From Solwaraspora sp. WMMA2056 (GTDB lineage: Bacteria; Actinomycetota; Actinomycetes; Mycobacteriales; Micromonosporaceae), in contig NZ_CP128360.1 of assembly GCF_030345095.1 (NCBI RefSeq), forward strand, positions 6,200,001 to 6,264,000: DNA of 64,000 bases, read 5' to 3'. The position numbers and the translations under genes were made by a program. The notes beneath the pieces were generated by a model. That model saw only the letters and a list, made by a program, of their open reading frames with translations, had not been told where the DNA came from and searched no databases. Of this stretch, positions 13,842 through 31,366 are shown in pieces (the first letter of the stretch is position 1; each line of letters begins with the position of its first letter).

Positions 13842-14734
13842 GGCGGCCCGGCCGCACGCCCAGCGGAAAGAAGGTGGTCGACGTGGTCCAGGCTGCGATG
13901 GTGCGGCGGGCGGCCGCCGCTCGTGCCACGACCAACGCGGGTGCCTGGGGCCCGGCGATGGCGGCGGCCGGCACCCTGGCCGCTGTGCTAGTCCTGGCCC
14001 GCCAGGCCCGTCCCGTCGTCGAGGCCGCCGCCTGGTCGTGGCGCTTCGCCGAGCAGGCCCCGACCACCATCATCGGCCCCATCGGCACCGCCCGGCTGGC
14101 CGGCTGGGCGCTGCTGGTCGCGGCACTGGTCGCCGGCTGGCGTACGGCCGCCGCGATCGGGGCGGGCGCCGCCGTACTGGCCGAGCTGGCGGTGCTGGCC
14201 ACCGGGGTACGCGACCATGCAGCACCCGGTTGGCACCTCCTGCTCGCCGTGGTCGTCGCCGTCCCGCTGTGCGGGTCACTGCTGCTTGCCGCCCGTGATG
14301 GCTGCGAGCAGCGACCGCTTCCGGGACGGTTCTGGGCCGCAGCGGCCGCGATGGGGCTGTGTGCATCGCTCAGCGCCGCTGGCGCGCCGCTGGTGGCGGA
14401 TCGTTTCGGCAACACCGTGGCGATCAGCACCATTCCAGTGGCGCGCATCGGGTTTGGCGCTCTGGCCGTGGTGGCGCTGTTCAGTCTCGTCGCGGTACTG
14501 GCGCTGCCGGTTGCCGTACGCCGCCGGGCGGTGGTGCTGCTGGCAGCCGTGGCTGCGTTGCTGGCCACGACGCAGCTCGGCTATGACGAGGCGTTCATGT
14601 CAATGCTCGACTACCCGGTCCTGCGCGACCAGCCAGCCATGGCGTTGGCGCTGGCCGCCGTGGCAGCGACCGTGGCGCTGACGCTCGGCACGCTCGCGGT
14701 GCTCTTTCTTCCACGCCTCCGACTTCCACGGTAG
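13838..14734 (+). CDS. Polytopic membrane protein, unknown family
   Basis: With the overlapping GTG at 13838 the protein has 298 residues (an ATG at 13896 is an alternative start). A cationic N-terminus is followed by about seven hydrophobic segments, e.g. AAAGTLAAVLVLARQA, LAGWALLVAALVAGW, LLLAVVVAVPLCGSLLLAA, IGFGALAVVALFSLVAVLAL and ALAAVAATVALTLGTLAVLF. No charged catalytic motif stands out and the family is not recognised. It sits between the DivIVA-like and toxin-antitoxin genes, only 1 bp before the antitoxin start, so these genes are probably co-transcribed. Some actinomycete integrative elements carry small membrane proteins of this kind for intramycelial spread, but no specific resemblance could be established by eye. 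Confidence 0.65.
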   Translation: MRRPGRTPSGKKVVDVVQAAMVRRAAAARATTNAGAWGPAMAAAGTLAAVLVLARQARPVVEAAAWSWRFAEQAPTTIIGPIGTARLAGWALLVAALVAGWRTAAAIGAGAAVLAELAVLATGVRDHAAPGWHLLLAVVVAVPLCGSLLLAARDGCEQRPLPGRFWAAAAAMGLCASLSAAGAPLVADRFGNTVAISTIPVARIGFGALAVVALFSLVAVLALPVAVRRRAVVLLAAVAALLATTQLGYDEAFMSMLDYPVLRDQPAMALALAAVAATVALTLGTLAVLFLPRLRLPR

Positions 14735-14735
14735 T

Positions 14736-15218
14736 GTGGATGTCATGGTGGCGGTACATGAGGAAGTGCCGTTCAGCGAATTCCTGCATCGGCCTGGCGC
14801 CGCCGCGGAACGGCTGAACGAGGTTCGTACGTTGCGGCTGCGTCGTCGCGACGCGGACGACTTGGCCCTTGTCCGCGCCGACCAGGTCGAACGAGAGGCA
14901 ATCGTCGTCGACTTCACCGCCCGTCTGCTGGCGGGCCTGGTTCGTTCCGGGTCGGTCGAGGCTGTCCGGCGGGTCCTTCAGGAGGCGCTGCCCTGGGTGA
15001 CGTTCCTCCCGGAGGGCGACGTCGACGAACTGCTCTCGGAACTGATCACCGTGGCCCAAGGCGCGGCCTCGCTGGAGAATCTGTCCCCGATCGCCACCCT
15101 GCTCGGGCAGTGGCGGCACACGGCGGAGATCTACAGCGACCCGGCCCTGCTGGAGATCATCAACCGAGAACCGGACGGCGACCTGGGTATGGTCGACCCG
15201 CCCGAAGAGCGACAATGA
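14736..15218 (+). CDS. Prevent-host-death-like antitoxin
   Basis: The 160-residue protein starts with MDVMVAVHEEVPFSEFLHRP (ATG at 14745 is equally possible). EEVPFSEFLHRPGAAAERL resembles the N-terminal Phd/YefM-type fold, in which a short strand and helix form a DNA-binding dimer, and a long helical C-terminus would wrap the toxin. It is longer than classic Phd (about 75-90 residues), as is common in actinobacterial versions that extend the toxin-neutralising region. It overlaps the downstream RelE/ParE-like toxin by ATGA. By analogy with the family, it should neutralise the toxin and repress its own promoter; that promoter is not separable from the upstream membrane gene. Confidence 0.72.
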   Translation: MDVMVAVHEEVPFSEFLHRPGAAAERLNEVRTLRLRRRDADDLALVRADQVEREAIVVDFTARLLAGLVRSGSVEAVRRVLQEALPWVTFLPEGDVDELLSELITVAQGAASLENLSPIATLLGQWRHTAEIYSDPALLEIINREPDGDLGMVDPPEERQ

Positions 15219-15568
15219 GTCCCAAGCGAGGCGACCGGGCAGCACCTCCAGCTGTCGGGACCGAGTACGAGTTGCGCTTCGCCACCTCCTCGGCCGCCGA
15301 CGGCTGGGAGACGCTCGCCCGGCAAGCTGCGGCGAACCTTCGGCGGGCCTACGACACCATCCGGGCGCAGCCGCGTGCCCGGCAGTCGACCGAACGGCAT
15401 CACCGGCTGAAGGGCTCCCTGGCCACAGGCAGTTGGAAGGGACAGGTCTACGAGCGGTGGCAGTACGAGGTCACCGGCGGCGGCCGGATCTGGTACCTCG
15501 TGGACGATGACCGACGTACCGCTTGGTTAACCTACGCCGGCACCGGGCATCCCCGGGAAACTGACTGA
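15215..15568 (+). CDS. RelE/ParE-like toxin
   Basis: A 117-residue basic protein overlapping the antitoxin gene by ATGA. Its core matches the RelE/ParE fold: YELRFATSSAADGWETLARQ (first strand and helix), RRAYDTIRAQPRA (second helix), HHRLKGSLATGSWKGQVYERWQYEV, and RIWYLVDDDRRTAWLTYAGTGH (the final beta hairpin that carries active-site residues in ribosome-dependent RelE nucleases). RelE members cut mRNA in the ribosomal A site; ParE members poison gyrase. The type cannot be assigned from sequence. Its last 37 bases overlap the 3' end of the opposite-strand ATPase gene at 15532, so the two transcripts converge. Confidence 0.75.
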   Translation: MSPKRGDRAAPPAVGTEYELRFATSSAADGWETLARQAAANLRRAYDTIRAQPRARQSTERHHRLKGSLATGSWKGQVYERWQYEVTGGGRIWYLVDDDRRTAWLTYAGTGHPRETD

Positions 15569-16737
15569 CGCCGAACTCCTTCGCCGTGCAACTCACGCTT
15601 CATGGCCCGCACCGTGTCCGGGTCGATCGCGGGAATACGCGACGCGGCGTCCTCGCCACGTTCACAGACGATCAGCTCGTCGGGGGTCAGCCGGTTGACC
15701 AGCGGCGGCGAATGGGTAGCTATCAGGAACTGGGTGCGCTCGGACGCCTCGCGCAGCAACTCGACCAACCGGTCGAGGATGTGGGAATGCAGACCGTGGT
15801 CGATCTCCTCGATACAAGTGAGACGCGGCGGCGCCGGGTCGTAGAGCAGAGCGAGCAGCGCAAGAGCCCGGATCGAACCGTACGACGCCTCCTGCAAGGT
15901 CGTCGCACCCGGCAGCCCACGCTCCACCAGGGTGAGTACGGTCCCCTCACCAGCACCACCGATCGGCCGGAACTGCAGTGCCTCCAGGCCCGGGATGAAG
16001 GCTCGCGCGTCGCGCTGCAGCGCGGCGAACTGGTCGCTGTGCTCATCGGCCAGGTAAGCGAGGAACGACGCCAGGTTGCTGGCGTCGTTGGCCAGCTGCC
16101 GGCTGCGCTGCTCCGTCGATGGCAGGCGGGCCGCAGCCACGTCGATGTCGAACACCCGGAAACTGGCGAACATGTCAGCGAGCGCTTCGACCTGCTCGCC
16201 GCCCTCCTCGGCACTGAGTTTGGGCAACGTCGACAATCCCAGCGAACCCTCGCGCAGACTGGCTTTCCGCTCCCCACCCTCGGGGCCATGGAAGGTGACC
16301 TGGTTGCCGGAGACCGCGATACGCCGGCCCGGGCCGGCGGTCCGCTTGAACGCGAATGCCTCAGAGCGCTGCAGGAAGTAGCGCTCCGTCTGGCCGCGTA
16401 GCTTTCCCCGGGACACACCGAGCTGGTAGTTGTCGGTGGCCCGCAAATTGCTGTTCCTGGTGACAGCGGCCTCCACCTCGATGGTGATGCTGGGCCGCTG
16501 GTCGCCACCGCCCCGGAACAGCACCCGGTCGAATCCACCGCGTCGCTCCAGCGCGGGCCCGAGGTCCTCCCGGGTGGCGTCGCCGAGGAAGGCGATCACG
16601 TCGAGGAGGTTGGACTTACCGGCGCCGTTGGGTCCGACGAGTACGTTGAGCGCGGCGAGCCGCACCTCCACCGCCCGAAGGCTGCGAAAGTTGCTCACCT
16701 TGAGCCTGAGCAGGTACGGGGGATGTCGGACGGCCAC
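15532..16737 (-). CDS. AAA family ATPase of the RecF/OLD type
   Basis: This 401-residue ABC-class ATPase starts with LLRLKVSNFRSLRAVEVRL, the typical RecF/OLD opening. It has Walker A VGPNGAGKSNLLDV, a signature-like EASYGSIRALALLALL, Walker B RLTCIEEIDHGLH and the H-loop in QFLIATHSPPLV. There is no C-terminal TOPRIM domain, so it is the stand-alone ATPase form rather than a full OLD nuclease. Related ATPases act in DNA repair or in phage-defence pairs with a separate nuclease. It is divergent from the DUF262 protein, and the 225-bp gap between them should hold both promoters, though I could not identify them. The C-terminal tail antisense to the toxin gene is probably disposable. Confidence 0.85.
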   Translation of the reverse strand: MAVRHPPYLLRLKVSNFRSLRAVEVRLAALNVLVGPNGAGKSNLLDVIAFLGDATREDLGPALERRGGFDRVLFRGGGDQRPSITIEVEAAVTRNSNLRATDNYQLGVSRGKLRGQTERYFLQRSEAFAFKRTAGPGRRIAVSGNQVTFHGPEGGERKASLREGSLGLSTLPKLSAEEGGEQVEALADMFASFRVFDIDVAAARLPSTEQRSRQLANDASNLASFLAYLADEHSDQFAALQRDARAFIPGLEALQFRPIGGAGEGTVLTLVERGLPGATTLQEASYGSIRALALLALLYDPAPPRLTCIEEIDHGLHSHILDRLVELLREASERTQFLIATHSPPLVNRLTPDELIVCERGEDAASRIPAIDPDTVRAMKRELHGEGVRRQSVSRGCPVPA

Positions 16738-16962
16738 GGCAGCAGGCTACCCGCTCGGCGCAGCGCCGCCAGCCAGGCGCAGCAAGTTGCCCGCTTCGAA
16801 TTGCCAAGGACACAGTCAGTCGCCCTCCGAGGTGTCCGATAACCGCCTCCGGCGGCCCGAACGAACACCCGGCAACTCGTACGCCTGGCCGTTGTCCATT
16901 GACGCGCACTCTGGTTGCATTGCCCGGGTTCGAGGAGTGTGCACACTAGACGGGAGTCGCCG

Positions 16963-19511
16963 ATGGTCGCGGCGCAGGAGACGACGCTGCAGAAGTTGCT
17001 CGAAGGCACCAAGCAGTACCGGGTGCCGTTGTACCAGCGGACGTACTCATGGTCCGAGCATCAGTGCAAGCGGCTCTGGGAGGACATCAAGAAGCTCGCC
17101 GACGACCGCCGCGCGGACCCCGCCGCCACTCACTTCATCGGCTCGGTGGTGCTGGCACCCAGCCCGGAGATCGGCCCGGTCGGGGTGCAGGAGTTCCTGG
17201 TCGTCGATGGGCAGCAGCGCCTCACCACCCTGTCGATCCTGCTCTGCGCGATCCGGGACCACCGGGCGAAGACCGAGGATCCGAAGCACCGGGGGCGGAT
17301 CGAACAGCTGTACCTGATCAACCAGTTCGAGTCCGATCCGCACCGGCTCAAACTCGTGCCCACCCAGGCTGACCGGGACGCGTACCTGGCCTGCGTGGAG
17401 TCGACTCCGCAGGTCGGCGGCAGCGACCACGTCGGTTCGGCGTACCGCTTCTTCGCCAGCCGGCTGATGGAATACGACGACGTCGAGGACCCGTTCGACA
17501 TCGCGCGGATCGAGAACGCCGTCATCACCGGGTTGGCGCTGGTGGCGGTCACCGCGCAGGCCGGCGACAACGTCTACCGGATCTTCGAGTCGCTGAACAA
17601 TACCGGCCTGCAGTTGACCCAGGCCGACCTGCTGCGCAACTACCTTTTCATGCGGCTGCCGACCCGGGGCGAGACCGTCTACAAGTCGCTGTGGTTCCCG
17701 CTGCAGGATACCCTCAACCGGGAGGACCTCGAGCTGCTCTTCTGGCTCGACCTGGTGCAGCGCAACGGCCGTGCCAAGCAGACCGACATCTACGCCGCGC
17801 ACCAGCTGCGGCTCAACGCGATGCGCGGCGAAGCGGAGATCGAAGCGGAGGTACGCCGGTTCAGCCACCTCGGCGCGCTGCTGAAGATCATCCTGCACCC
17901 GGAGAGCGAGCCAGACCCCGAGGTCCGGCGGCGGCTGACCCGGCTGCATGCCTGGGGCGCCACCACCGTCTACCCGCTGCTGCTGCACCTGCTGGACCGC
18001 CGTGCGCAGGGCACCGCCACCGCCGCGCAGGTCATCGCGGCCATGCGGTACGTGGAGAGCTTCTTCGTCCGCCGCCTGGTGATCGGTCGGGCGACCGCCA
18101 ACGTCAACCGGATCCTGATGTCGATCGTCACCGAGATGGACGCGAAGCTCCCGGTCGACGAAGCGGTCCGGGCGTACTTGTCGACTGGCCGTAAGCACTA
18201 CGCAACCGACGCGCAGATCCGCTCGTCGACCAGGACCATCCCCTTCTATCTCAACGGACGCGCGCATCAGCGCAACCTCGTACTTCAGTGGTTGGAGGAG
18301 GCGCACCGCAGCAAGGAGCCGGTGGCAGCCGACACGCTCACCATCGAGCATGTGCTGCCGCAGACGCCGACCGCGCAGTGGCGGCAGATGCTCAACGACG
18401 ACCTCGGGCCCGACGAGAACTTCACCGACGTGCACGAGTCGCTGGTGCACACGATCGGCAACCTGACCCTCACCGGATACAACTCCGAGCTGGGCAACAA
18501 ACCGTTCGACGCCAAGAAGGCCGCGTTGGCGAAGAGCCCGATCGTGCTCAACCGGGACATCGCCCAGCAGGAGCGGTGGGGGCGGCCGGAAATCCAGGCC
18601 CGCAGCGAGGCGCTCGCCGAGCAGATCATCTCGCTCTGGCCGGGTCCAGTCGAGGCCTCCCGCGACAACGACTCCGACGTGCCGTGGGACGTGATGAACC
18701 GGGCGCTGGCCGAGCTGCCCGCCGGTTCGTGGACCACGTACGGCGACGTGGCCGCGCTGATCGGCAGCCACCCGGTGCCGGTCGGGACGCGGCTGGCGAA
18801 CCATCCGGTGCCGAACGCACACCGGGTGCTGCAGACCGGCGGCACCGTCTCACCGGGCTTCCGCTGGCCCGATCCGGCCCGTACCGACGACCCGCTCGAC
18901 CTGTTGCGGGCCGAAGGGGTCGAGTTCGATGGCAGTGGGCGCGCCGCCCCGGAGCAGCGGATCCCGCTGGACGAGCTGGCCCAGCTCGCCGGGCTCAGCA
19001 CCGATGATCTGCCGCGCCCCCGGTCACCGCGATCCAGCGCGGCGCACGCCGAACGCTTCAACACTCAGCTGGCCCAGCTGCAGGACCCGCCGGTGGTCGC
19101 CGCCGTGCAGGCTGTTCGCGACGGCTGGACCGCGCTCGGCGGCCGCCTGCTCTACGGCACCGGCGACGAAACGTCGTGCTTTCTCATCGCACGCGGCAAG
19201 GACCATCGGCTCGGCAGCATCTGGCCGGCGACGATCTACCCGAGTGGCAAGTTCGAGATCGTCTTCCAGCATCTCAAGAACCGGATGCCGTTCGACGACA
19301 TGGCGCTGCGTGAGGAGTTCCGGCAGCGGCTCAACAAGATCCCGGGGTGTCCATCGCGGCGGCCCGGATCGGGCTACGGCCGGGTTTGCGGCTGTCGGTA
19401 CTCGCCGACCCGGCGGCCCGTGAGCTGCTGATCGAGCAGCTCGACTGGTTCTACCAGCAGGCGCAACCGCCGGCCGAGGACGACGCCGACGAGGGTGAAC
19501 AGTTGAGCTGA
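16963..19511 (+). CDS. DUF262-DUF1524 protein fused to an alkyltransferase-like domain (frameshift near 3' end)
   Basis: ATG at 16963 follows GGGAG. The N-terminal DUF262 domain has the ParB-like VDGQQRLTTL motif (residues 81-90), used for nucleotide binding and hydrolysis in GmrSD-type type IV restriction enzymes. DUF1524 follows, with the HNH-type LTIEHVLPQTP (about 458-468) and HTIGNLTLTGYNS. From about 573 to 665 there is an MGMT/ATL-like DNA-binding domain (GSWTTYGDVAALIGSHPVPV, then PNAHRVLQTGG). It lacks the PCHR alkyl-acceptor Cys, as ATL proteins do. A C-terminal domain of unknown family ends in LIEQLDWFYQQAQ. The GGGG run at 19344-19347 lacks one G: as given, the protein ends at 19431, but the restored frame continues to 19511 (849 residues). 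It probably restricts modified DNA. Confidence 0.82.
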
Positions 19512-19521
19512 CCGCCAGGCT

Positions 19522-20254
19522 GTGGAGGCGCTGCGCGCCGAGTTGGCCGCCGCTGGTGCCACCACCCACCTGCAGTTGTGCGCCGACGCGGCGCGGCTGC
19601 TCGCCGATGGCGACACCGGCGCCGCCGAGGACGCGTCTCTGCGGTTCGACCACGTGGTGGTTGACGAGGCGCAGGATCTGCACCCGGCGCAGTGGCGGGT
19701 GCTGCGGGCAGCGGTTCCGGCCGGTCCGGACGACACCTTCCTCACCGGCGATCCGCATCAGCGGATCAACGACGCGAAAGTGTCGCTGGCCGCGCTCGGG
19801 ATCCGTACCGCCGGGCGCAGCTTCCGGCTGCGAATCAACTACCGCAGTACGGCGGAGATCCTCACCTGGTCGACCGGGCTGCTCGACGGGGACGGCCGCG
19901 ACAACCTGACCGGCTACCGGTCGCTGCTGCGAGGTCGGCGGCCGACGGTAGCCGGGTTTCCGGACGAGCCGGCCGAGGCGGCGGCGCTGGTGCAGCGGGC
20001 CCGCGAGTGGCTCGACCGGGGCGTACGGCCGGCAGAGGTCGCCGGCTGCACCCGGTTCAAGGCCAGGCTGGACCCGGTGCAGGCGGCGTTGGCCGAGGCC
20101 GGCATCCCGACGGTGCTGGTCAAGGACCAGCCGTCAGCGGACATCGGCGGGGTACGGCTGGCCACCATGCGTACTGTTCGTCGCCTGCACCCGCGCCCGC
20201 GAAGCGCTGCATGTGTCGTGGACAGGCCAACCGAGTCAATTCCTCCCGCGATAG
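19522..20254 (+). pseudogene. UvrD-type helicase remnant with internal deletion
   Basis: The stretch from 19522 reads as the middle of a UvrD/Rep-type superfamily 1 helicase: FDHVVVDEAQDLHPAQWRVL is motif II, followed by FLTGDPHQRINDAKVSLAAL (motif III region) and FRLRINYRSTAEILTWS (motif IV). The N-terminal Walker A half is missing. After VRLATM at about 20168 the frame jumps straight to LFVACTRAREALHVSWTGQ (20174 onward, another frame), which is motif VI and the normal C-terminal end, closing with a stop at 20254. The part between motifs V and VI is thus deleted. The remnant cannot be an active helicase. It lies 10 bp after the DUF262 gene, so an intact helicase may once have belonged to that defence locus. 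Confidence 0.75.
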
Positions 20255-20321
20255 CTTGTGTCTCTTGTTCCAGGGTTCGCGCGGCCGCCTTGGCAGGCCG
20301 GCTTCTCCGGCAACCGCCACG

Positions 20322-21596
20322 TCAGACCGCCAACAGCCCCCCGTTTCGCACCTCGTCCTTGATCGCGATCAGGTTGGCCGCCACGTACGGAATGTGGTGC
20401 GCGCGGTGCCAGTCCGTCGGGAAGTAGGTAACCAACCTGGACACCTGGAAACGGCAGGTAATCTCCGGTACGTACTTGGCGTACTGCTGGTCCGTGAAAT
20501 ACCAGAACGAGTTCTCGTTGTAGAAGGCAACATGCGTCGGGTCCTGGAACGCGCCCCTGCCGTCGCTGCTCGGCGTCAACGACAACAGCATCCCGCCAGG
20601 CGCCAACAAGCGGTACAGCTCGTTGAACAACGCGATCTTGTCCGGGATGTGCTCCAGAAAGTCACTCGCCCGGATCACTCCAACGCTGCTGTCCGGCAGA
20701 TCCAGGCCCTTGGTGATGTCACATACCATGTCAACCTCAGGTCCGGCATGAACATCGACACCTTGGTAACCTTCGACCTTGTTGTGTGCCGCACCCAGGT
20801 CGAGCGCAAGCAGACCCTGCCGCTTGGCCCACGCCAACGCGTTCAGCTGCACATTCCGGTCATAGACCTCCACAGTACGCTGCTGAATCTTGGCGTTCAT
20901 CTCCGGCACACGCTGCGTATTTCCTGCATGCATCCGTTGCAGGTAGAGACACTCTGGGATGTGATGAAAATCCGCTAGCTGATACATGCGACACATGAGG
21001 TCGGCATCGTCGGCGACGTCAAGTACCTCGTCGTACCCGCCGGACTTTTCGTAGATGTCCCGGCGAAACGCACGTACATGATTCGGCGCGTACCAGATGT
21101 AGCTCACGTTGTGCGGCGTCGGCGGCAGTGCCATACAGGCCAACACTTCGCGGCCATCAACCCTGACGTCCCGATATCGCCAACCATGATCAGCCGAAAA
21201 ACGACTGTCGTCGCGACTACCGTCCTCAGCAATCTGGGCGGTGTCGCTGTAGACCAGGCCGACCTCCGGATTCTCGTCGAAGGCATCAACCACCTTTTCG
21301 AGGCAGTCGCTAGCAAGAAGATCGTCGTGGTCCAACTCGACGAGTATGTCGCCCGACGCCTCCGCACAGGCCCGCTTCTTGACCGCACCAACGCCCGACA
21401 CCTCATCCTGCACCACCAGGCGAATTCGCTGATCCGGCACCTCGGGCCGCCAGCGGTTCCCTTGATTCAGAACGATGACCCACTCCCAATCATCGAACGT
21501 CTGCGCTTGGAGCGACTGATGGCACTCATCCAAGAACTTGGTGCGATTACTGCCTGTGAAAACTGTAACAGCTGGCTTCCTCATCTCACCACTCAC
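20322..21596 (-). CDS. Bifunctional GT2 glycosyltransferase-methyltransferase
   Basis: The 424-residue protein is a fusion. Residues 8-230 form a GT-A family 2 glycosyltransferase: AVTVFTGSNRTKFLDECHQSL, the metal-binding DHDD near 89-92 in ILVELDHDDLLASD, and KSGGYDEVLDVADDADLMCR near the acceptor site. Residues 260-424 form a class I SAM methyltransferase, with LLALDLGAAHNKVEGYQGVDV as motif I and ASDFLEHIPDKIALFNELYRLLAPGGMLL as the later motifs. It has no signal peptide or membrane segment. Its GTG start directly follows the stop of the TPR lipoprotein gene. Together with the collagen-like gene upstream, this suggests it adds and methylates a sugar on that protein or another envelope component; the substrate is inferred. 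Codon use is less GC-rich than its neighbours, consistent with transfer. Confidence 0.85.
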   Translation of the reverse strand: MSGEMRKPAVTVFTGSNRTKFLDECHQSLQAQTFDDWEWVIVLNQGNRWRPEVPDQRIRLVVQDEVSGVGAVKKRACAEASGDILVELDHDDLLASDCLEKVVDAFDENPEVGLVYSDTAQIAEDGSRDDSRFSADHGWRYRDVRVDGREVLACMALPPTPHNVSYIWYAPNHVRAFRRDIYEKSGGYDEVLDVADDADLMCRMYQLADFHHIPECLYLQRMHAGNTQRVPEMNAKIQQRTVEVYDRNVQLNALAWAKRQGLLALDLGAAHNKVEGYQGVDVHAGPEVDMVCDITKGLDLPDSSVGVIRASDFLEHIPDKIALFNELYRLLAPGGMLLSLTPSSDGRGAFQDPTHVAFYNENSFWYFTDQQYAKYVPEITCRFQVSRLVTYFPTDWHRAHHIPYVAANLIAIKDEVRNGGLLAV

Positions 21597-22187
21597 TCAC
21601 TGGCTCAGAACATCTTCGACGTCGCCTCGATGTTCTTCGGGAACGCTTTCCAACAGCGCTCTATCGAGCCGCACCGCCTTCTCGAACGCCGTACGGGCTT
21701 CGGCCTCATCACCCTCGCTCACCAGCAAGAGACCCAGCCGCAGGTACGCGGTCGAAGCCTCATCATCAAGGTCGACGATCTGGCGATACAGACCGATCGC
21801 CGCCTCCTTGTCACGGCTTTCGAGTGCGATGGCCTTGTTGAACAGAGCAGGCTTATAGGAGGGATCAGCCTCTAATGCCTGATCATAGCGTTCGATGGCC
21901 TGCGCGATCTGGTCCCGCGACTGCGCGATGTAGCCGAGGTTGTACCAGGCCAACACGTTATTCTCATCGACAGCCAGTACCTGCTCGAAGGTTTCTTTAG
22001 CCTTCTCAATATCTCCCGACTGGCCCTCCTCGACACCCTTCCGAACCAAGGCGACGAGGTCTTCGCTCACAGCTCCGGCATTCTTGGTTTCCGGACCCTG
22101 CGCTTCTCCGTCGGTGGTGCATGCCGGAACCCCGGCCAGTAGCACTGCACCACACGCCAGCGATCCAAACATCGTTCGCATTTTCAT
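21597..22187 (-). CDS. TPR-repeat lipoprotein
   Basis: The 196-residue product starts with a lipoprotein signal (MKMRTMFGSLACGAVLLAGV then PACTT, probable lipidated Cys23). After an acidic linker come about three tetratricopeptide repeats. The clearest run NNVLAWYNLGYIAQSRDQIA and PSYKPALFNKAIALESRDKE, followed by ASTAYLRLGLLLVSEGDEAE. TPR units mediate protein-protein contacts, so this is likely an extracytoplasmic scaffold. It directly precedes the glycosyltransferase-methyltransferase gene with no spacer. It was originally preceded by the collagen-like gene at a spacing of about 60 bp, before an IS element landed 27 bp upstream of its start. The IS may have removed or replaced its promoter. 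Confidence 0.85.
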   Translation of the reverse strand: MKMRTMFGSLACGAVLLAGVPACTTDGEAQGPETKNAGAVSEDLVALVRKGVEEGQSGDIEKAKETFEQVLAVDENNVLAWYNLGYIAQSRDQIAQAIERYDQALEADPSYKPALFNKAIALESRDKEAAIGLYRQIVDLDDEASTAYLRLGLLLVSEGDEAEARTAFEKAVRLDRALLESVPEEHRGDVEDVLSQ

Positions 22188-22257
22188 TTCTCGTCACTCC
22201 TAATAATTGATGTCTGAGGGGCCTCGCGTTTTCCGGACAGTGGTTCGGCCGGTTCTT

Positions 22258-23142
22258 TCACGCCGCGATTTGAAGGTTCTCGAACTCTGCGTGGACTTCC
22301 CGGGGAGGTCGGTAGCCCACCGCTGAATGCAGACGCTGACGATTGTACCAGAATTCGATGTAGGCAGTAACGTCCCGGCGTGCCGCCTCACGAGTGGGAT
22401 ACTTCACACGCGACACGCGTTCGTTCTTCAGCGCACCGAAGAACGATTCCGCCATCGCATTGTCGAAACAAGTTCCGGTCCGGCCAGCAGATCGCCGCAA
22501 CCTCAGATCCCGCAGCGTTCTGCCGTAGTCGTCCGACATGTAGTTGCTGCCCCGGTCCGAATGAAAGATGGCGTTCTTCCTGAGTTCGCGATTCCGGGCG
22601 GCGTTACGGATGGCGCGGGATATCAACGGCGTCTGGTAGTGGTCGTCCATCGCGTATCCGATGACTTCCTTCGTGCAGCAGTCGATGACGGTCGCCAGAT
22701 ACAGCCACCCCTCGCCGGTCGGGATGTACGTGATGTCGCCGACGAGCTTCTCGCCAGGCGCGTCGGCGGTGAACTCCCGGCCGACGAGGTCAGGCACCGT
22801 GCCGGACGACGACTGGGTGAGACCCCACCGCCTCGGGCGGGGCTGGCACGGCACGAGCCCGAGCTCGCGCATCAGCTGGCGGACGAGTTCCGGCCCGGCG
22901 GACACGCCCTGGCGCCGCAGTTGCGCGTGGACACGTCGATGCCCGTAGGTGCCGTCGGACGCGGCGAACACCTCCTCGATGGCCGATCGAAGGTGGGCGC
23001 GGCGGGTGGCGGTCGCGGAGTCGGGGCGGGTTCGCCATTCGTAGTATCCGGACCTGGACACGCCGAGTTGTTCGCACATGAAGTCGACGGGGTAGGCGTA
23101 CTTCGCGGTGTCGAGTCGCATCGTCTCGATGAACTCGTACAA
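22258..23142 (-). CDS. IS3-family transposase OrfB (copy 1)
   Basis: The 294-residue product is an rve-type integrase/transposase with the DDE triad: the first Asp is in [15 protein letters not shown], the second in [15 protein letters not shown], and the Glu in [15 protein letters not shown]. The N-terminal part [20 protein letters not shown] matches the HTH_21-containing region of IS3 OrfB. As in other IS3 elements, it is probably made mainly as an OrfAB fusion by -1 frameshifting at the AAAAAAG run near the end of OrfA (coding strand), since this frame stays open back to that run. A TTG could serve as an independent start. Confidence 0.92.
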   Translation of the reverse strand: MYEFIETMRLDTAKYAYPVDFMCEQLGVSRSGYYEWRTRPDSATATRRAHLRSAIEEVFAASDGTYGHRRVHAQLRRQGVSAGPELVRQLMRELGLVPCQPRPRRWGLTQSSSGTVPDLVGREFTADAPGEKLVGDITYIPTGEGWLYLATVIDCCTKEVIGYAMDDHYQTPLISRAIRNAARNRELRKNAIFHSDRGSNYMSDDYGRTLRDLRLRRSAGRTGTCFDNAMAESFFGALKNERVSRVKYPTREAARRDVTAYIEFWYNRQRLHSAVGYRPPREVHAEFENLQIAA

Positions 23143-23147
23143 GCTCG

Positions 23148-23441
23148 TTACCGAGGGTCCTTCGCGAAGTACGCCGCGGCTTTTTTCAGGAAGCTGTTCT
23201 CCATTTCGAGTTCCCGGTTGCGACGTTCGAGTTCCTTCAGTCGAGCGCGCTCGTCGACGCCGATCGGTGGGCTGTCCTGGGCGCCGCTGTTTTCCCGCCG
23301 GTACTGGCGGACCCAGGAACGGAGCGTCTCCGGGTGAACGTCGATCTCCCGGGCAACCTGCGACACTGGCTTGTTCGACTGTAGAACGAGTTGCACTGCT
23401 TCTTCACGGAACTCTGGGGTGTATGAGCTTATGCGTGCCAT
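23148..23441 (-). CDS. IS3-family OrfA (copy 1)
   Basis: The 97-residue product is a helix-turn-helix plus leucine-zipper protein: [40 protein letters not shown], then a coiled coil in [20 protein letters not shown]. OrfA binds the terminal inverted repeats and regulates transposition. Its 3' part contains the A6G slippery heptamer (FLKKAAA codons) typical of programmed -1 frameshifting into OrfB. It is identical in protein sequence to the OrfA at 24733. Confidence 0.92.
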   Translation of the reverse strand: MARISSYTPEFREEAVQLVLQSNKPVSQVAREIDVHPETLRSWVRQYRRENSGAQDSPPIGVDERARLKELERRNRELEMENSFLKKAAAYFAKDPR

Positions 23442-23552
23442 CGCGCTTCTTCCCTCGACTTTCCTTACAGGGTAACCTTATTGGCTCCCTGTCCGGAATC
23501 CTCGGGGCACCTCATGTCCAACACCGAGCGCTCTCGTTCGTCGACCTTCAGA

Positions 23553-24659
23553 TCACGCAATGTCCGCACAGACGACATAGACTGTGCCGCCAGTTCCGCC
23601 AAACTCGGCTTGCCAACCAGTCGGCTCACCGGCGATGGGGATTGGCCGCGATGTGTCGGGGCTTCCCTGGGATTGGTAACCACCACCGGTAGCAACGTCC
23701 CCCGCATCGCACTGCACCTCAAGCAGCCCGGACCCCCCTGCGGAAGCCGAGTTGACGTAGAGATCCGGGAAGCCTGCACCTTGCGCGCCTTGTGGCCCCT
23801 GGGGACCTTGCACGCCCTGGAAACCTTGAGCACCCTGCGCACCTTGAGCACCCTGCGCGCCCTGGAAGCCCTGAGCCCCTTGCGCCCCTTGAGCCCCTTG
23901 CACGCCTTGAGCGCCTTGAGCGCCTTGAGCGCCCTGCGCCCCTTGTGCACCGTCAGCACCCTGGAACCCCTGCGCACCCTGCGCACCCTGCACGCCCTGG
24001 AAGCCCTGGGCTCCCTGCGCGCCCTGCGCACCCTGAGCTCCTTGAGCTCCTTGAGCTCCCTGCACGCCCTGGAAGCCCTGCGCTCCCTGCGCACCCTGTG
24101 CTCCCTGAGCTCCTTGAGCTCCCTGAGCTCCTTGAGCTCCCTGAGCTCCCTGAGCTCCCTGAGCTCCCTGCACGCCCTGGAAGCCCTGCGCACCCTGCAC
24201 GCCTTGTGCTCCTTGAGCGCCCTGCGCACCCTGCGCACCTTGAGCTCCCTGCACGCCCTGGAAGCCCTGCGCACCCTGCGCACCCTGTGCTCCCTGCGCA
24301 CCCTGCGCACCCTGCGCACCCTGTGCTCCCTGCGCACCCTGCACGCCTTGAGCGCCCTGCGCACCCTGCGCACCCTGCACGCCCTGGAAGCCCTGCGCAC
24401 CCTGCGCACCCTGTGCTCCCTGCGCACCCTGCACGCCTTGAGCGCCCTGCGCACCCTGCGCACCCTGCACGCCCTGGAAGCCCTGCGCACCCTGCACGCC
24501 TTGCGCACCCTGCGCACCCTGTGCTCCCTGCGCACCCTGCGCACCCTGCGCACCCTGTGCTCCCTGCGCACCCTGCGCACCCTGCACGCCCTGGAAGCCC
24601 TGCGCACCCTGCGCACCTTGTGCTCCCTGCGCGCCCTGCGCACCCTGCACGCCTTGAAC
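23553..24659 (-). pseudogene. Collagen-like protein gene, 3' part (separated by IS copy 2)
   Basis: This is the C-terminal portion of the collagen-like gene that begins at 27363. It encodes about 98 Gly-X-Gln triplets, mostly Gly-Ala-Gln with recurring GFQGVQ pairs every 8-13 triplets. A 73-residue non-repetitive end domain follows (from [20 protein letters not shown] to VYVVCADIA) with two cysteines. The end domain looks like a small beta-rich fold that could nucleate trimers or sit at the tip of a stalk. Removing IS copy 2 plus one AAC duplication joins it in frame to the 5' part; before insertion the protein had about 835 residues. On its own this part has no signal peptide and only weak GTG starts, so it is probably not usefully expressed. 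Confidence 0.88.
23790..24656 (-). repeat. Tandem 9-bp repeat array (3' part of collagen gene)
   Basis: The coding strand is a tandem array of GCGCAGGGT-type 9-mers with single-base variants (GCTCAAGGT, GTGCAGGGC, TTCCAGGGC). Most units carry GGG, so G-tracts recur every 9 bases with 6-base loops. The array resumes at 25960 after IS copy 2. Such arrays are prone to slippage, so the exact unit number here should be treated with care. Confidence 0.9.
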
Positions 24660-24732
24660 TGAGGTGCCCCGAGGATTCCGGACAGGGAGCCAATAAGGTT
24701 ACCCTGTAAGGAAAGTCGAGGGAAGAAGCGCG

Positions 24733-25026
24733 ATGGCACGCATAAGCTCATACACCCCAGAGTTCCGTGAAGAAGCAGTGCAACTCGTTCTACAGTCGAA
24801 CAAGCCAGTGTCGCAGGTTGCCCGGGAGATCGACGTTCACCCGGAGACGCTCCGTTCCTGGGTCCGCCAGTACCGGCGGGAAAACAGCGGCGCCCAGGAC
24901 AGCCCACCGATCGGCGTCGACGAGCGCGCTCGACTGAAGGAACTCGAACGTCGCAACCGGGAACTCGAAATGGAGAACAGCTTCCTGAAAAAAGCCGCGG
25001 CGTACTTCGCGAAGGACCCTCGGTAA
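24733..25026 (+). CDS. IS3-family OrfA (copy 2)
   Basis: Identical in sequence to the copy 1 OrfA: 97 residues with an N-terminal helix-turn-helix ([19 protein letters not shown]) and a C-terminal coiled coil. An upstream GGGAAGAAG-like site supports the ATG at 24733. The A6G heptamer at 24988-24994 allows a -1 slip into the OrfB frame, and that frame has no stop between the heptamer and 25032, so an OrfAB fusion transposase can be made. Confidence 0.92.
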
Positions 25027-25031
25027 CGAGC

Positions 25032-25916
25032 TTGTACGAGTTCATCGAGACGATGCGACTCGACACCGCGAAGTACGCCTACCCCGTCGACTTCATGTGC
25101 GAACAACTCGGCGTGTCCAGGTCCGGATACTACGAATGGCGAACCCGCCCCGACTCCGCGACCGCCACCCGCCGCGCCCACCTTCGATCGGCCATCGAGG
25201 AGGTGTTCGCCGCGTCCGACGGCACCTACGGGCATCGACGTGTCCACGCGCAACTGCGGCGCCAGGGCGTGTCCGCCGGGCCGGAACTCGTCCGCCAGCT
25301 GATGCGCGAGCTCGGGCTCGTGCCGTGCCAGCCCCGCCCGAGGCGGTGGGGTCTCACCCAGTCGTCGTCCGGCACGGTGCCTGACCTCGTCGGCCGGGAG
25401 TTCACCGCCGACGCGCCTGGCGAGAAGCTCGTCGGCGACATCACGTACATCCCGACCGGCGAGGGGTGGCTGTATCTGGCGACCGTCATCGACTGCTGCA
25501 CGAAGGAAGTCATCGGATACGCGATGGACGACCACTACCAGACGCCGTTGATATCCCGCGCCATCCGTAACGCCGCCCGGAATCGCGAACTCAGGAAGAA
25601 CGCCATCTTTCATTCGGACCGGGGCAGCAACTACATGTCGGACGACTACGGCAGAACGCTGCGGGATCTGAGGTTGCGGCGATCTGCTGGCCGGACCGGA
25701 ACTTGTTTCGACAATGCGATGGCGGAATCGTTCTTCGGTGCGCTGAAGAACGAACGCGTGTCGCGTGTGAAGTATCCCACTCGTGAGGCGGCACGCCGGG
25801 ACGTTACTGCCTACATCGAATTCTGGTACAATCGTCAGCGTCTGCATTCAGCGGTGGGCTACCGACCTCCCCGGGAAGTCCACGCAGAGTTCGAGAACCT
25901 TCAAATCGCGGCGTGA
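25032..25916 (+). CDS. IS3-family transposase OrfB (copy 2)
   Basis: Identical to the OrfB of copy 1: 294 residues, rve/DDE fold with Asp in GDITYIP, Asp in FHSDRGSNY and Glu in [12 protein letters not shown]. It starts at TTG 25032 or, more likely, is produced as an OrfAB fusion. No truncation or missing catalytic residue is seen, so the element is probably mobile, which agrees with two identical copies having landed within 3 kb with separate target duplications. Confidence 0.92.
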
Positions 25917-25956
25917 AAGAACCGGCCGAACCACTGTCCGGAAAACGCGAGGCCCC

Positions 25957-27363
25957 TCAAACGCCCTGCGCACCTTGCGCACCTTGAACGCCCTGTGCTC
26001 CCTGCGCACCCTGAGCACCCTGAGCGCCCTGGAAGCCCTGCACGCCCTGGAAGCCCTGCGCACCTTGAGCACCCTGCGCACCTTGCGCACCTTGAGCTCC
26101 CTGCACGCCCTGGAAGCCCTGCGCTCCCTGCGCACCCTGCGCACCCTGCACGCCCTGCACGCCCTGAGCACCCTGAGCACCCTGAGCGCCCTGAGCACCC
26201 TGAGCACCCTGAGCACCCTGAGCACCCTGAGCGCCCTGAGCACCCTGAGCACCCTGAGCGCCCTGCGCGCCCTGGAAGCCCTGCGCACCCTGCGCACCCT
26301 GCGCACCTTGAGCGCCCTGCGCACCCTGCACGCCTTGCGCACCCTGGAAGCCCTGCGCACCCTGCACGCCCTGCACGCCCTGCACGCCCTGCGCACCTTG
26401 CGCACCCTGCGCACCCTGCGCACCCTGCGCACCCTGCACGCCCTGCACGCCCTGCACGCCCTGCGCACCTTGCGCACCCTGCGCACCCTGCGCACCCTGC
26501 GCACCCTGCACGCCCTGCACGCCCTGCACGCCCTGCGCACCTTGCGCACCCTGCGCACCTTGCGCACCCTGCGCACCCTGAGCTCCTTGAGCTCCCTGCA
26601 CGCCCTGCGCACCCTGTGCTCCCTGCGCACCTTGAGCACCCTGCACACCTTGAGCGCCCTGGAAGCCCTGCGCCCCTTGAGCACCCTGCGCACCCTGCGC
26701 TCCCTGCGCACCCTGCGCACCTTGAGCACCCTGCACACCTTGAGCGCCCTGGAAGCCCTGCGCCCCTTGAGCACCCTGCACACCCTGCGCACCCTGCGCA
26801 CCCTGTGCTCCCTGCGCACCTTGAGCACCCTGCACACCTTGAGCGCCCTGGAAGCCCTGCGCCCCTTGAGCACCCTGCACACCCTGCGCACCCTGTGCTC
26901 CCTGCGTACCCTGCGCACCCTGCGCACCCTGGAAGCCCTGTGCCCCTTGAACGCCCTGCGCACCCTGCGCACCTTGAGCGCCCTGTGCCCCTTGCGCACC
27001 CTGAGCGCCCTGCGGTCCTTGAGGGCCACGGCTCGGCTTGTGTCGACGCCATTCGTCTTCTGAGCGCTGCCAACCCTGCGGCCCAAGGCCCGGCTGCCAG
27101 CGTTCGCGATCGCCAATCGCCGGGTCGTCGCGCAGCGGCGCTGCGGGATACCAGACGGCACGGTGCCCATGCGGCCCAGGTGTGACGAGCGATGACTCCG
27201 CGCTGGGACGCACATCCTCCAACTGCCGGACCTCTGCCGCAGCGGCCGGCTGCACCACCGGCGTCAAGCTACCGGTCGTCGCGGCAAGCAGCAGGAGATA
27301 GCCCACCTTGGCCGGGGTTTGGGCTTGTTTCAGTCGTCGACGTAGGCGTCGCTCACTGGTCAC
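25957..27363 (-). pseudogene. Collagen-like secreted protein gene, 5' part (interrupted by IS copy 2)
   Basis: GTG at 27363 follows GGGAG and begins a signal peptide: a basic [20 protein letters not shown], hydrophobic [17 protein letters not shown], and a cleavage site near QPAAAA (residues 38-43). An N-terminal domain of about 70 residues ([20 protein letters not shown] onward) precedes a long collagen-like region starting at about residue 113 with GPQGPQGAQ. It then runs for about 118 Gly-X-Gln triplets, almost all Gly-Ala-Gln. Proline is nearly absent, which is unusual for a triple helix. IS copy 2 ends the frame at 25957. The intact gene headed an operon with the TPR lipoprotein and the glycosyltransferase-methyltransferase. 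As it stands, the gene would make a truncated secreted stalk without its end domain. Confidence 0.88.
25960..27030 (-). repeat. Tandem 9-bp repeat array (5' part of collagen gene)
   Basis: About 118 units of a 9-mer (GCGCAGGGT and variants) run on the coding strand. It also shows higher-order blocks: a roughly 72-bp block with three GTGCAGGGC units in a row recurs three times between about 26360 and 26570, and a block with GGTGTGCAGGGT recurs between 26640 and 26890. These blocks indicate expansion by recombination or slippage. Confidence 0.88.
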
Positions 27364-27564
27364 AGCTACTCCCGCAGCGTCCCGAAGGTCAGTAGAAGTT
27401 CCTCGACGGGCGTTGGGGGGGTCCCGCACTACTCAAGACCATAAGCGCGCAGAAGCCTATATGTACTCATTATTGAGAAATATCTGTTATGAGGCTTCCT
27501 CGCCTTGATGCATCGCTCGGGAACCGGTCAAGGGCTCCCAGAGCGATACACCGCGCCGAAGAAG
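27364..27564 (-). promoter_or_regulatory. AT-rich promoter region of the collagen-like operon
   Basis: The 200 bp upstream of the collagen-like start include a stretch at about 27440-27500 that is clearly AT-rich compared with all surroundings (ATATGTACTCATTATTGAGA and TATCTGTTATGAGG). On the minus strand it contains CATATAGGC-like and CAATAATG-like elements that could form a -10 region. No precise promoter can be fixed. No gene is seen in this gap. Confidence 0.4.
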
Positions 27565-29901: not shown

Positions 29902-31209
29902 TCAGGCGACGGCGCAGGGGGTGCCGTCGAGGGTGAACGAGCTGGGCCTACCACTGTTGCCGGAGTGGGTGGCCTGGAAGCCGATGCTCTGCGAGCCGTT
30001 CGGCGGGATGGTGGCGTTGTAGGACATGTTGCGGGCGGTGACCGCGCCGCTGGTCGGCGAGTACGTCGCGTTCCAGCCGGAGATGATGGTCTGCCCGGCC
30101 GGCAGGGTGAACGCCAGGCTCCAGCCGTTGATCGCGCTGCTGCCGGTGTTGGCGATGGTCACCGAGGCGACCAGCCCGTTGTTCCACGCGTTCACCCCGT
30201 AGGTGACCCGGCAGGCCCCGGACGGCGGCGGCGTGGTAGGCGGAGCCGTCGTCGGCGGAGCGGTCGTCGGCGGAGCGGTCGTGGGCGGAGCAGTGCCGTC
30301 GAGGCCGAAGAAGCGGATCACCTGGGCGGCGTCGACCGGAATGTTGTGGCTGACGCCCTGCATGCTGATCGCCTCGACCGGGGCCATCCCGCCGGAGGCG
30401 CCGTAGCGGGTGCGGGTGTAGTTGCCCTGCGGGTTGTCGGTGTAGGTCGGCGTCTGGCTGAGCCCGTACGTGTTGGTCCACTGCTTCACCTGCTCGGCGA
30501 AGTTCGGGTAGCGCAGTGTTTCGTCGTTGGTGCCGTGCCAGATCTGCATGCGGGGCCAGGGGCCGCGGTAGCTGGGGTTGGTGTTGCGGACGGCGTCGCC
30601 CCACTGCTGGGCGGTACGGACGATCTGCCCGTTGGCGCACTGGCTGTTCCACTCGGAGCCGCCGGTGGTGGCGAAACAGGTGAACGGCACACCGGCGAAG
30701 GACGCGCCGGCGGCGAAGACGTCCGGGTAGACGCCGAGCATGACGTTGGTCATCATCGCGCCGGACGACGTCCCGGTGGCGAAGATCCGGCCCGGGTCGG
30801 CGTTGTAGCGCTGCTGCACGTAGCTGATCATGGAGCGGATGCCGACCGGGTCACTGCCGCCGCCCCGGGTCAGTGCCTGCTGCGAGTAGACGTCAAAGCA
30901 CTGGCTGCTGCGGGTCACCGACGGGTAGATGACGATGTAGCCGTACCGGTCGGCCAGGGAGGCGTACTGGGTGCCGGAGTAGTAGGCGGGCCCGGTGCCG
31001 GTGCAGTAGTGCATGGCGACCAGGATCGCCGGGCGGGTCGCTACCCGGTCCGGCACGTACAGGTACATGCGCAGGTTGCTGGGGTTGGTGCCGAAGTTGG
31101 TGACTTCGGTGAGGGTGGCCGCCGAGGCGGGTGCCGCGAAGGTGAGGACGGCCGCCGCAGCCGTGACGGCGGCGGCGGTGACGGCCAGCATCTTGGCCAT
31201 GAGTCTCAT
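29902..31209 (-). CDS. Secreted PHB-depolymerase-type (CE1) esterase with CBM2
   Basis: ATG at 31209 has a perfect GGAGG ribosome binding site. The 435-residue product has a signal peptide ending near APASA and an alpha/beta-hydrolase domain of the PHB depolymerase/acetylxylan- or feruloyl-esterase type: the nucleophile Ser is in ATGTSSGAMM, the Asp in WHGTNDETLRY and the His in QGVSHNIPV. A Pro-Thr linker of PPTTA repeats leads to a C-terminal CBM2 (CRVTYGVNAWNNGLVASVTI to the end) for binding cellulose or xylan. The most likely job is removing acetyl or feruloyl groups from plant cell-wall xylan, complementing the GH10 xylanase 28 kb away. The divergent LacI-type gene and operators in the gap imply sugar-responsive control. 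Confidence 0.9.
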   Translation of the reverse strand: MRLMAKMLAVTAAAVTAAAAVLTFAAPASAATLTEVTNFGTNPSNLRMYLYVPDRVATRPAILVAMHYCTGTGPAYYSGTQYASLADRYGYIVIYPSVTRSSQCFDVYSQQALTRGGGSDPVGIRSMISYVQQRYNADPGRIFATGTSSGAMMTNVMLGVYPDVFAAGASFAGVPFTCFATTGGSEWNSQCANGQIVRTAQQWGDAVRNTNPSYRGPWPRMQIWHGTNDETLRYPNFAEQVKQWTNTYGLSQTPTYTDNPQGNYTRTRYGASGGMAPVEAISMQGVSHNIPVDAAQVIRFFGLDGTAPPTTAPPTTAPPTTAPPTTPPPSGACRVTYGVNAWNNGLVASVTIANTGSSAINGWSLAFTLPAGQTIISGWNATYSPTSGAVTARNMSYNATIPPNGSQSIGFQATHSGNSGRPSSFTLDGTPCAVA

Positions 31210-31279
31210 GTGCTTCCTCCGGAACGCACGCAGGGGAATCCGGTACGGGGCTGCCCAGGCTCCCGCTTTACTCCGGCTC

Positions 31280-31366
31280 GAAACAGTTACTAGTATCGAT
31301 AGAAACAGTTCGAGACACAAGGTCGAACCTCAGATCGACATCGAGACAACCCTATGGAAGCGCTTC
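31280..31366. promoter_or_regulatory. Operator-like repeats between esterase and LacI genes
   Basis: GAAACAGTT occurs at 31280-31288 and 31302-31310, a spacing of 22 bp, about two helical turns. A perfect 10-bp palindrome GAAGCGCTTC lies at 31357-31366, of the type bound by LacI-family regulators (central CG). The sites lie in the 217-bp divergent gap, so the LacI protein probably controls both itself and the esterase operon. Confidence 0.5.

Follow-up and report, generated by a model that had tools for sequence, protein, structure and literature searches.

The gene set and its locus

We analysed a window of 64,000 nucleotides (G000:C1:6200001-6264000) from the 7.0-Mb, single-contig genome of Solwaraspora sp. 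WMMA2056, hereafter G000. Its minus strand carries a set of three genes, encoding a Gly-X-Gln collagen-like protein, a putative tetratricopeptide repeat (TPR) lipoprotein and a fusion of a GT2 glycosyltransferase with a methyltransferase, termed GT-MT below (Table 1). We call the C-terminal domain of the collagen-like protein the tip, and L numbers denote fetched loci. The three genes form a conserved linked unit, and the GT-MT family is common in phages, a point that the initial annotation of the window had missed. That annotation had proposed that virtual removal of two IS3-type insertion sequences (IS) leaves three minus-strand genes in a row, and the coordinates, the encoded features and an intact sister locus all agree with it. 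The two pieces of the collagen gene share one frame, with 468 codons followed by 367 and a stop, and together with the triplets counted in Table 1 they bear out the predicted protein of about 835 residues and about 215 triplets. The TPR and GT-MT open reading frames (ORFs) are both intact and abut base to base (21596/21597).

Both IS copies measure 1300 bp, are 100% identical to one another, lie in inverted orientation and have the ends TGAGG...CCTCA, and a Pfam scan of one copy identified HTH_Tnp_1 and rve transposase genes. G000 holds nine full identical copies of the element and one split copy, and because the nine are identical the insertions are probably recent. The element is recently active in G000, and a near copy (98.6%) occurs in the genome G001 (L337:1085-2385). 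Since the second IS (24660-25959) splits the fibre gene, the gene set is probably off in the window strain; relatives have intact copies. In the sister genome G005 (locus L023) the collagen gene is intact, syntenic and IS-free and has the same neighbours, with a DNA identity to the window of 97.9% over 4.5 kb on one side and 93.4% over 4.1 kb on the other, the latter including part of the stalk. Its open frame spans 1057 residues, or 1030 when counted from the GTG that matches the start in the window.

Table 1. Features of the gene set and its surroundings (positions in the window)
Feature	Position	Strand	Basis
Collagen-like protein, N-terminal part: basic start resembling a signal peptide, hydrophobic stretch, AAAA, linker	27026..27363	-	hydropathy, relatives
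Gly-X-Gln stalk, first piece, 118 triplets, terminated by IS insertion	25960..27025	-	
IS3-type element splitting the collagen gene; 3 bp (AAC) duplicated at its ends	24660..25959	+	
Gly-X-Gln stalk, second piece, 98 triplets in runs	23775..24656	-	
C-terminal tip domain, 73 residues, two conserved Cys, predicted small all-beta fold	23553..23774	-	
IS3-type element separating the collagen and TPR genes; 4 bp (TGTC) duplicated at its ends	22215..23514	-	
TPR protein, lipobox-like start	21597..22187	-	Pfam TPR; alignment
GT-MT: GT2 at about residues 7-230, methyltransferase at about 245-424	20322..21596	-	Pfam, invariant residues, AlphaFold
Block lacking at the equivalent site in G001 and G004; contains the gene set and defence-like genes	14703..27563	.	

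The encoded proteins

Pfam Collagen (PF01391) matched the long Gly-X-Y repeats of both stalk pieces (E = 6e-60 and 7e-50), and all 23 listed Collagen matches in G000 (E up to 0.001) fall within this locus. The stalk is built of Gly-Ala/Val/Phe-Gln triplets, with Gln filling 100% of the Y positions in the first piece and 98% in the second, Pro at about 2% of the X positions and a single Thr in 216 triplets, so that the composition is as unusual as had been claimed. For comparison, the figures excerpted from PMC3368898 put Thr at 48.3% and Gln at 18.4% of Y positions and Pro at 31% of X positions in Gram-positive collagen-like proteins, and Gln at 13% of Y positions in viral collagens. The G005 stalk has 281 Gly-X-Y triplets with 95.4% Gln at Y, and Ser, Thr, Asn, Tyr and Lys together account for 5 of its 562 X and Y residues (4 Thr, 1 Ser). 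As the stalks of the window and of G005 are almost without Ser and Thr, it is difficult to see how they could undergo ordinary O-glycosylation. The stalks of eight further loci are richer in Thr, Asn, Asp, Ser or Pro, with Gln still the commonest residue at Y (57-86%); Thr is present in the stalks of several other loci of the family, and another residue outnumbers Gln at Y in the linked stalks of L026, L166, L363, L168 and L373.

The Gly and Ala codons of the repeat switch between synonyms, suggesting that the protein sequence, beyond the DNA repeat, is maintained. The repeat also produces long ORFs in other frames as a side effect, and the Gly-X-Gln frame alone runs on from the signal-like N-terminus to the conserved tip, as in the intact homologue. 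The N-terminus, whose signal-like character was judged by hydropathy, is 99% identical in amino acids to that of G005, and relatives have comparable N-termini. Both collagen pieces matched the NCBIfam model NF038313 (His-Xaa-Ser repeat protein; 73 and 85 bits, cut-off 55), the best stretch being one residue; these matches were rejected as low-complexity.

A model of the tip, built from the G005 copy, gave a confident six-strand domain (pLDDT 93.8), and its two Cys residues are kept in all seven aligned sequences. The tip found no sequence match in the PDB at E up to 1 and none among the PHROGs. Besides its Pfam TPR match, the TPR protein has a Cys23 that is invariant in 4/4 aligned sequences, lipobox-like starts were recognised by eye at other loci, and the window protein matches a phage family of unassigned function (phrog_7590). 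In L026 the TPR domain closes a membrane protein whose PMT_2 match is weak and lies below cut-off, and in L027 it comes after a hydrophobic segment, which fits an exported TPR domain.

The GT2 half of the GT-MT matched PF00535 with 50 bits (cut-off 23.3), and its GT2-site acidic residues E87, D89, D91, D92, D196 and D197 are invariant in all 26 aligned proteins. The methyltransferase half matched Methyltransf_11 and Methyltransf_23 with 31.1 and 32.4 bits (cut-offs 21.2 and 27); the residues of the S-adenosylmethionine-type motif are kept in nearly all of the same 26 proteins (Asp/Glu266 in 25, Gly268 in 23, Asp281 in 25; L168 is the exception at most sites), and D352 and H355 are invariant. 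The AlphaFold model of the whole protein was confident (pLDDT 90.9, pTM 0.89). No strongly hydrophobic segment was found, and the enzyme is likely cytoplasmic because its most hydrophobic 19-residue stretch scores only 1.03. By sequence, the GT half is related to chondroitin synthase, SpsA, TagF and other GT2 enzymes of solved structure; the methyltransferase half gives weak hits to solved structures, down to a glucose O-methyltransferase (E 9e-4) as the last of those listed.

Conservation of the gene set in bacteria

The GT-MT occurs in 20 of 250 genomes of the family, spread over 5 of 44 genera and including 4 of the 7 genomes of the genus (window included). Separate profile searches with the TPR protein and with the tip (E < 1e-21) returned the same 20 genomes; the tip search gave six extra weak matches (5e-10 to 1e-6), one of them a second match within the 20. 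This convergence bears out the expectation that homologues of the collagen-like protein recur beside TPR and GT-MT genes. The opposite outcome, in which the three genes are normally unlinked, was also checked for, and the linkage held in the family: at 19 loci and in the window, one strand carries the collagen gene, then the TPR gene, then the GT-MT gene. Five of these loci are cut by a contig end yet keep the tip, the stalk frame is split in L154, L158 and L163, and in G208 the stalk contains an N gap and the GT-MT a single stop. Overlaps of 4 nucleotides were found at 8 of 11 measured TPR/GT-MT junctions and at 7 of 11 collagen/TPR junctions. No fourth protein cluster is common to most of the family loci; the best further cluster outside the set covers three loci, and an ORF cluster seen in seven loci merely overlaps the GT-MT on the opposite strand.

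Sampling more widely, we found GT-MT in 4 further genomes among 396 of the phylum and in 17 further genomes among 394 of the class (G272 is also in the phylum sample), and a search of genome contigs revealed two Acidimicrobiales/Acidimicrobiaceae metagenome-assembled genomes carrying it with 65-67% identity. Three loci with partial GT-MT matches only and without collagen (L028-L030) were left out of the counts. Pfam Collagen matches 176 of the 250 family genomes at 1e-5, sometimes in several frames per place, and was therefore rejected as a presence/absence control in favour of arbitrary stretches. ORFs were scored as collagen-like when they had at least 8 Gly-X-Y triplets in runs of at least 6, with Cys/Arg/His-rich frames excluded. 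By this measure a collagen-like ORF lies at 24 of the 25 bacterial loci fetched earlier and at 15 of the 17 class-sample loci (stretches of 4-19 kb), which with the window makes 40 of 43, and at 0 of 20 arbitrary 12-kb stretches from ten of the GT-MT genomes. Two of the misses, L165 and L372, are cut at a contig end just upstream.

Collagen and GT-MT genes stay together across differing arrangements, and the TPR gene is frequent, not universal, at GT-MT loci. In family f92 the collagen gene directly precedes the GT-MT gene, without a TPR gene, in 7 of 9 loci, and lies downstream in L368. In L358, L359, L361, L373 and L374 the TPR and GT-MT genes form a pair from which the collagen gene diverges, and in L167, which has no TPR gene, the collagen gene lies about 2 kb off on the other strand. 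At L358, L359 and L360 (G778, G724 and G673) two GT-MTs of different subfamilies share one collagen locus, which suggests a glycan of more than one sugar. A DUF6445 ORF lies near the Acidimicrobiales copy of the set (L026:8262-8753).

Relatives of GT-MT in phages

A profile search of IMG/VR returned at least 590 relatives of GT-MT, of which the best 80 were kept, and a single-sequence search returned 14, one of them overlapping; the resulting 93 loci reduced to 56 non-redundant and 45 usable ones (at least 7 kb). A collagen-like ORF lies at 24 of the 45 (20 of 41 in the profile set alone, that is, among the best 80 of at least 590). With 80 loci kept for each control, the corresponding counts were 0 of 33 for DNA methyltransferase loci and 3 of 41 for T4-type neck protein loci without GT-MT (Fisher 5e-8 and 5e-6, respectively); a glycosyltransferase query and a baseplate query gave 2 loci and 1 locus and were not used. 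For the 68 sequence-distinct phage GT-MTs listed, a collagen-like gene ends within about 150 bp upstream in 9 and starts within about 10 bp downstream in 3. Among the matches listed, the phage collagens nearest to GT-MT mostly have a Gln fraction of 0.5-1.0 at Y, the lowest being 0.27. The collagen-like protein beside the GT-MT in L036 matches 28 PHROGs, many of them named tail fibre, a kind of match that repeats inflate. In a tree made by a quick method, with weak deep branches, the bacterial GT-MTs need four label changes among the phage copies, and L027 and L165, both from bacterial genomes, pair with phage copies. The presence of the fused enzyme beside collagen-like genes in both phages and bacteria suggests an exchange of surface-decoration tools between viruses and their hosts. 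On one phage contig, a TOD1/MUCI70-like glycosyltransferase ORF directly follows the GT-MT (L031:6316-6978).

Divergence and probable mobility of the locus

Between the window and G005, the flanking oxidoreductases differ at 7 of 362 and 10 of 392 codons (about 99% amino acid identity) and the collagen N-terminus at 2 of 112, as against 58 of 423 in GT-MT, 56 of 73 in the tip and 112 of 193 in the TPR protein. The last two are the most divergent parts, with amino acid identities of 58% and 78%. This local divergence far exceeds that of the flanks, so a stretch covering both the tip and the TPR gene was exchanged or diversified, and it may represent a single recombination tract. The 58 codon differences in GT-MT comprise 52 silent and 6 replacing ones.

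The GC content of the TPR and GT-MT genes is 0.59, and at third codon positions (GC3) it is 0.67 and 0.74, respectively, against 0.88-0.92 in four neighbours. The low GC content ascribed earlier to the whole set therefore holds for these two genes and fails for the stalk, whose first part has 0.72. G001 and G004 have the flanking oxidoreductase (95-96%) and, before the next common block, about 1.7 kb in place of the 12.9-kb block listed in Table 1. The deviant GC3, the patchy distribution and the absence of the block from these two genomes make the suggested horizontal transfer likely.

Proposed function and alternative explanations

With somewhat more confidence than doubt, we read the set as a mobile kit: GT-MT would add a sugar to an exported collagen-like fibre and cap that sugar with a methyl group, and the putative TPR lipoprotein would serve as an anchor or assembly factor. 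The enzyme's function is predicted: the collagen-like protein is the most likely substrate because it is common to the bacterial setting and to the phage one, where the collagen-like genes often found nearby are of the tail-fibre kind. The fibre protein would be made with a signal-peptide-like N-terminus and, judging from the sequence and the tip model, would trimerise through its Gly-X-Gln stalk, with the small beta tip displayed at the C-terminal end. Prior to export, GT-MT, which is apparently soluble and cytoplasmic, would put a sugar on the fibre protein, most likely on Ser or Thr in the tip or linker or on one of the few Thr in the stalk, and would methylate the added sugar as a cap. At the outer surface of the membrane, the putative TPR lipoprotein may retain the fibre or aid its assembly.

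The nearest precedent is SgtA-BclA3 of Clostridioides difficile. As far as the excerpted text of PMC7157674 describes it, SgtA is a GT-A enzyme with C-terminal TPRs, encoded beside bclA3, that transfers GlcNAc onto Thr of the collagen repeat, and the glycan can receive a further capping group, comparable to the proposed methyl cap. Both systems thus have a glycosyltransferase gene adjoining a collagen-like gene (here a TPR gene may intervene) and TPR repeats. Unlike SgtA, GT-MT carries a methyltransferase domain, the TPR repeats reside in a separate lipoprotein-like protein, the window stalk is almost without Thr acceptors, and no link to spores is known. Rhodococcus phages encode a glycosyltransferase and a methyltransferase that the authors, in the excerpted part of PMC13313380, read as a sign of virion glycosylation; those are separate genes, whereas here one fused protein is encoded, often near collagen-like genes.

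The collagen-like protein resembles streptococcal Scl and Bacillus BclA in having a Gly-X-Y stalk, a non-collagenous end domain and export. Scl and BclA are rich in Thr and Pro and are anchored by LPXTG or in the exosporium. The window protein scored 139-181 bits over its two pieces against the NCBIfam SclA/SclB models (cut-offs 400/325), and no LPXTG could be read from its C-terminus. A further known kind is the collagen-like tail fibre of phages, to which the L036 protein is linked by its PHROG matches; the window protein differs in having a signal-like N-terminus and a tip without PHROG matches. No published description of this gene set was found in the open-licence PMC literature. It is a compact candidate for a system that modifies collagen in settings other than animals, spores and giant viruses, and its near-pure stalk bears on how a triple helix could hold together with almost no Pro or Thr.

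Several observations weigh against a glycosylated fibre. Hydroxyl residues are nearly absent from the stalks of the window and G005, and because the stalk offers almost no Thr sites, the candidate acceptors are the tip, the linker, the rare stalk Thr or Gln. L366, a member of f92, is a real miss, with no collagen-like ORF across 15 kb. Of the 17 class-sample loci, 6 yielded a TPR relative, and at the other 11 none was detected. Tip, TPR and GT-MT distances all inter-correlate over the 20 genomes, and the partial correlation of tip and TPR given GT-MT is weak (r 0.19, matched by 212 of 2000 permutations), showing little beyond the operon's common history, so that we claim no direct tip-TPR contact. 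On the phage side, a collagen-like ORF is missing from 21 of the 45 usable loci; among the matches listed, no collagen lies near the phage GT-MTs most similar in sequence to the bacterial ones (L046, L047 and L079; loci of 9.6-11.3 kb); and of the neck-protein loci with a GT-MT, 0 of 3 have a collagen-like ORF.

Some of these observations lend themselves to a possible, though distinctly less probable, explanation in which GT-MT acts on a polysaccharide or lipid of the cell surface, with the collagen-like fibre bound to that glycan or seated on it; the phage enzyme would alter the host surface or another part of the virion. The best solved GT2 relatives are of the polysaccharide type, NCBIfam models such as TuaG and EpsD match the enzyme, though far under cut-off, and both the near lack of stalk Ser and Thr and the roughly half of listed phage copies without nearby collagen would be expected. 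A scan of 50 neighbour ORFs at 19 loci including the window, selected out of 96 that GC3 had singled out, further turned up five methyltransferases, two ABC-2 transporters and one RmlD. However, the collagen linkage holds in phages, in bacteria and in several gene arrangements, and no polysaccharide gene is common to most loci, the best further cluster reaching only the three loci noted above; both points speak against this explanation.

A bolder reading is a long shot: one enzyme lineage may be a dedicated decorator of Gly-X-Gln collagens, on virions and on an actinobacterial surface fibre, acting perhaps on the Gln-rich stalk. If so, modification of a Gln stalk would be a collagen chemistry new to our knowledge. 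It is improbable that the set simply travels with mobile DNA, as a fibre-enzyme pair that bacteria took over from a phage and that does little for its host. The grouping of bacterial GT-MTs with some phage copies and the patchy, GC-deviant, island-borne occurrence of a set whose window copy is IS-broken agree with such a capture, but the bacterial set has a fibre with a signal-like N-terminus and a putative TPR lipoprotein that found no BLAST relatives at 94 phage loci, the silent differences between the G000 and G005 GT-MTs outnumber the replacing ones as selection would give, and the tip is strongly conserved across genera within a large group. That the enzyme acts on the repeat itself, at the Gln so common at Y near GT-MT in the window, in G005, at the eight further loci and in most of the nearest phage collagens, is very unlikely, since we know of no chemistry by which GT2 enzymes modify Gln, Gln is fairly common at Y in ordinary collagens as well, and at five of the linked loci it is not the commonest Y residue.

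Neighbouring genes

The region next to the gene set (15532-19431) is a candidate defence island. It encodes an AAA ATPase like HEC-01A, a match made with the homologue in G005, where the following gene matches HEC-01B. It also encodes a GmrSD-type protein that carries an alkyltransferase-like DNA-binding domain as a fusion (models Orf5/HEC-06). A defence link as a general feature of the set was rejected: in the neighbour scan, matches to any of the 8 defence models used (1e-20) were confined to single proteins. A putative truncated UvrD-type helicase, judged by eye, lies next to GT-MT (19522-20168), and a PHB-depolymerase-like esterase with a CBM2 cellulose-binding domain is encoded at 29902-31320.

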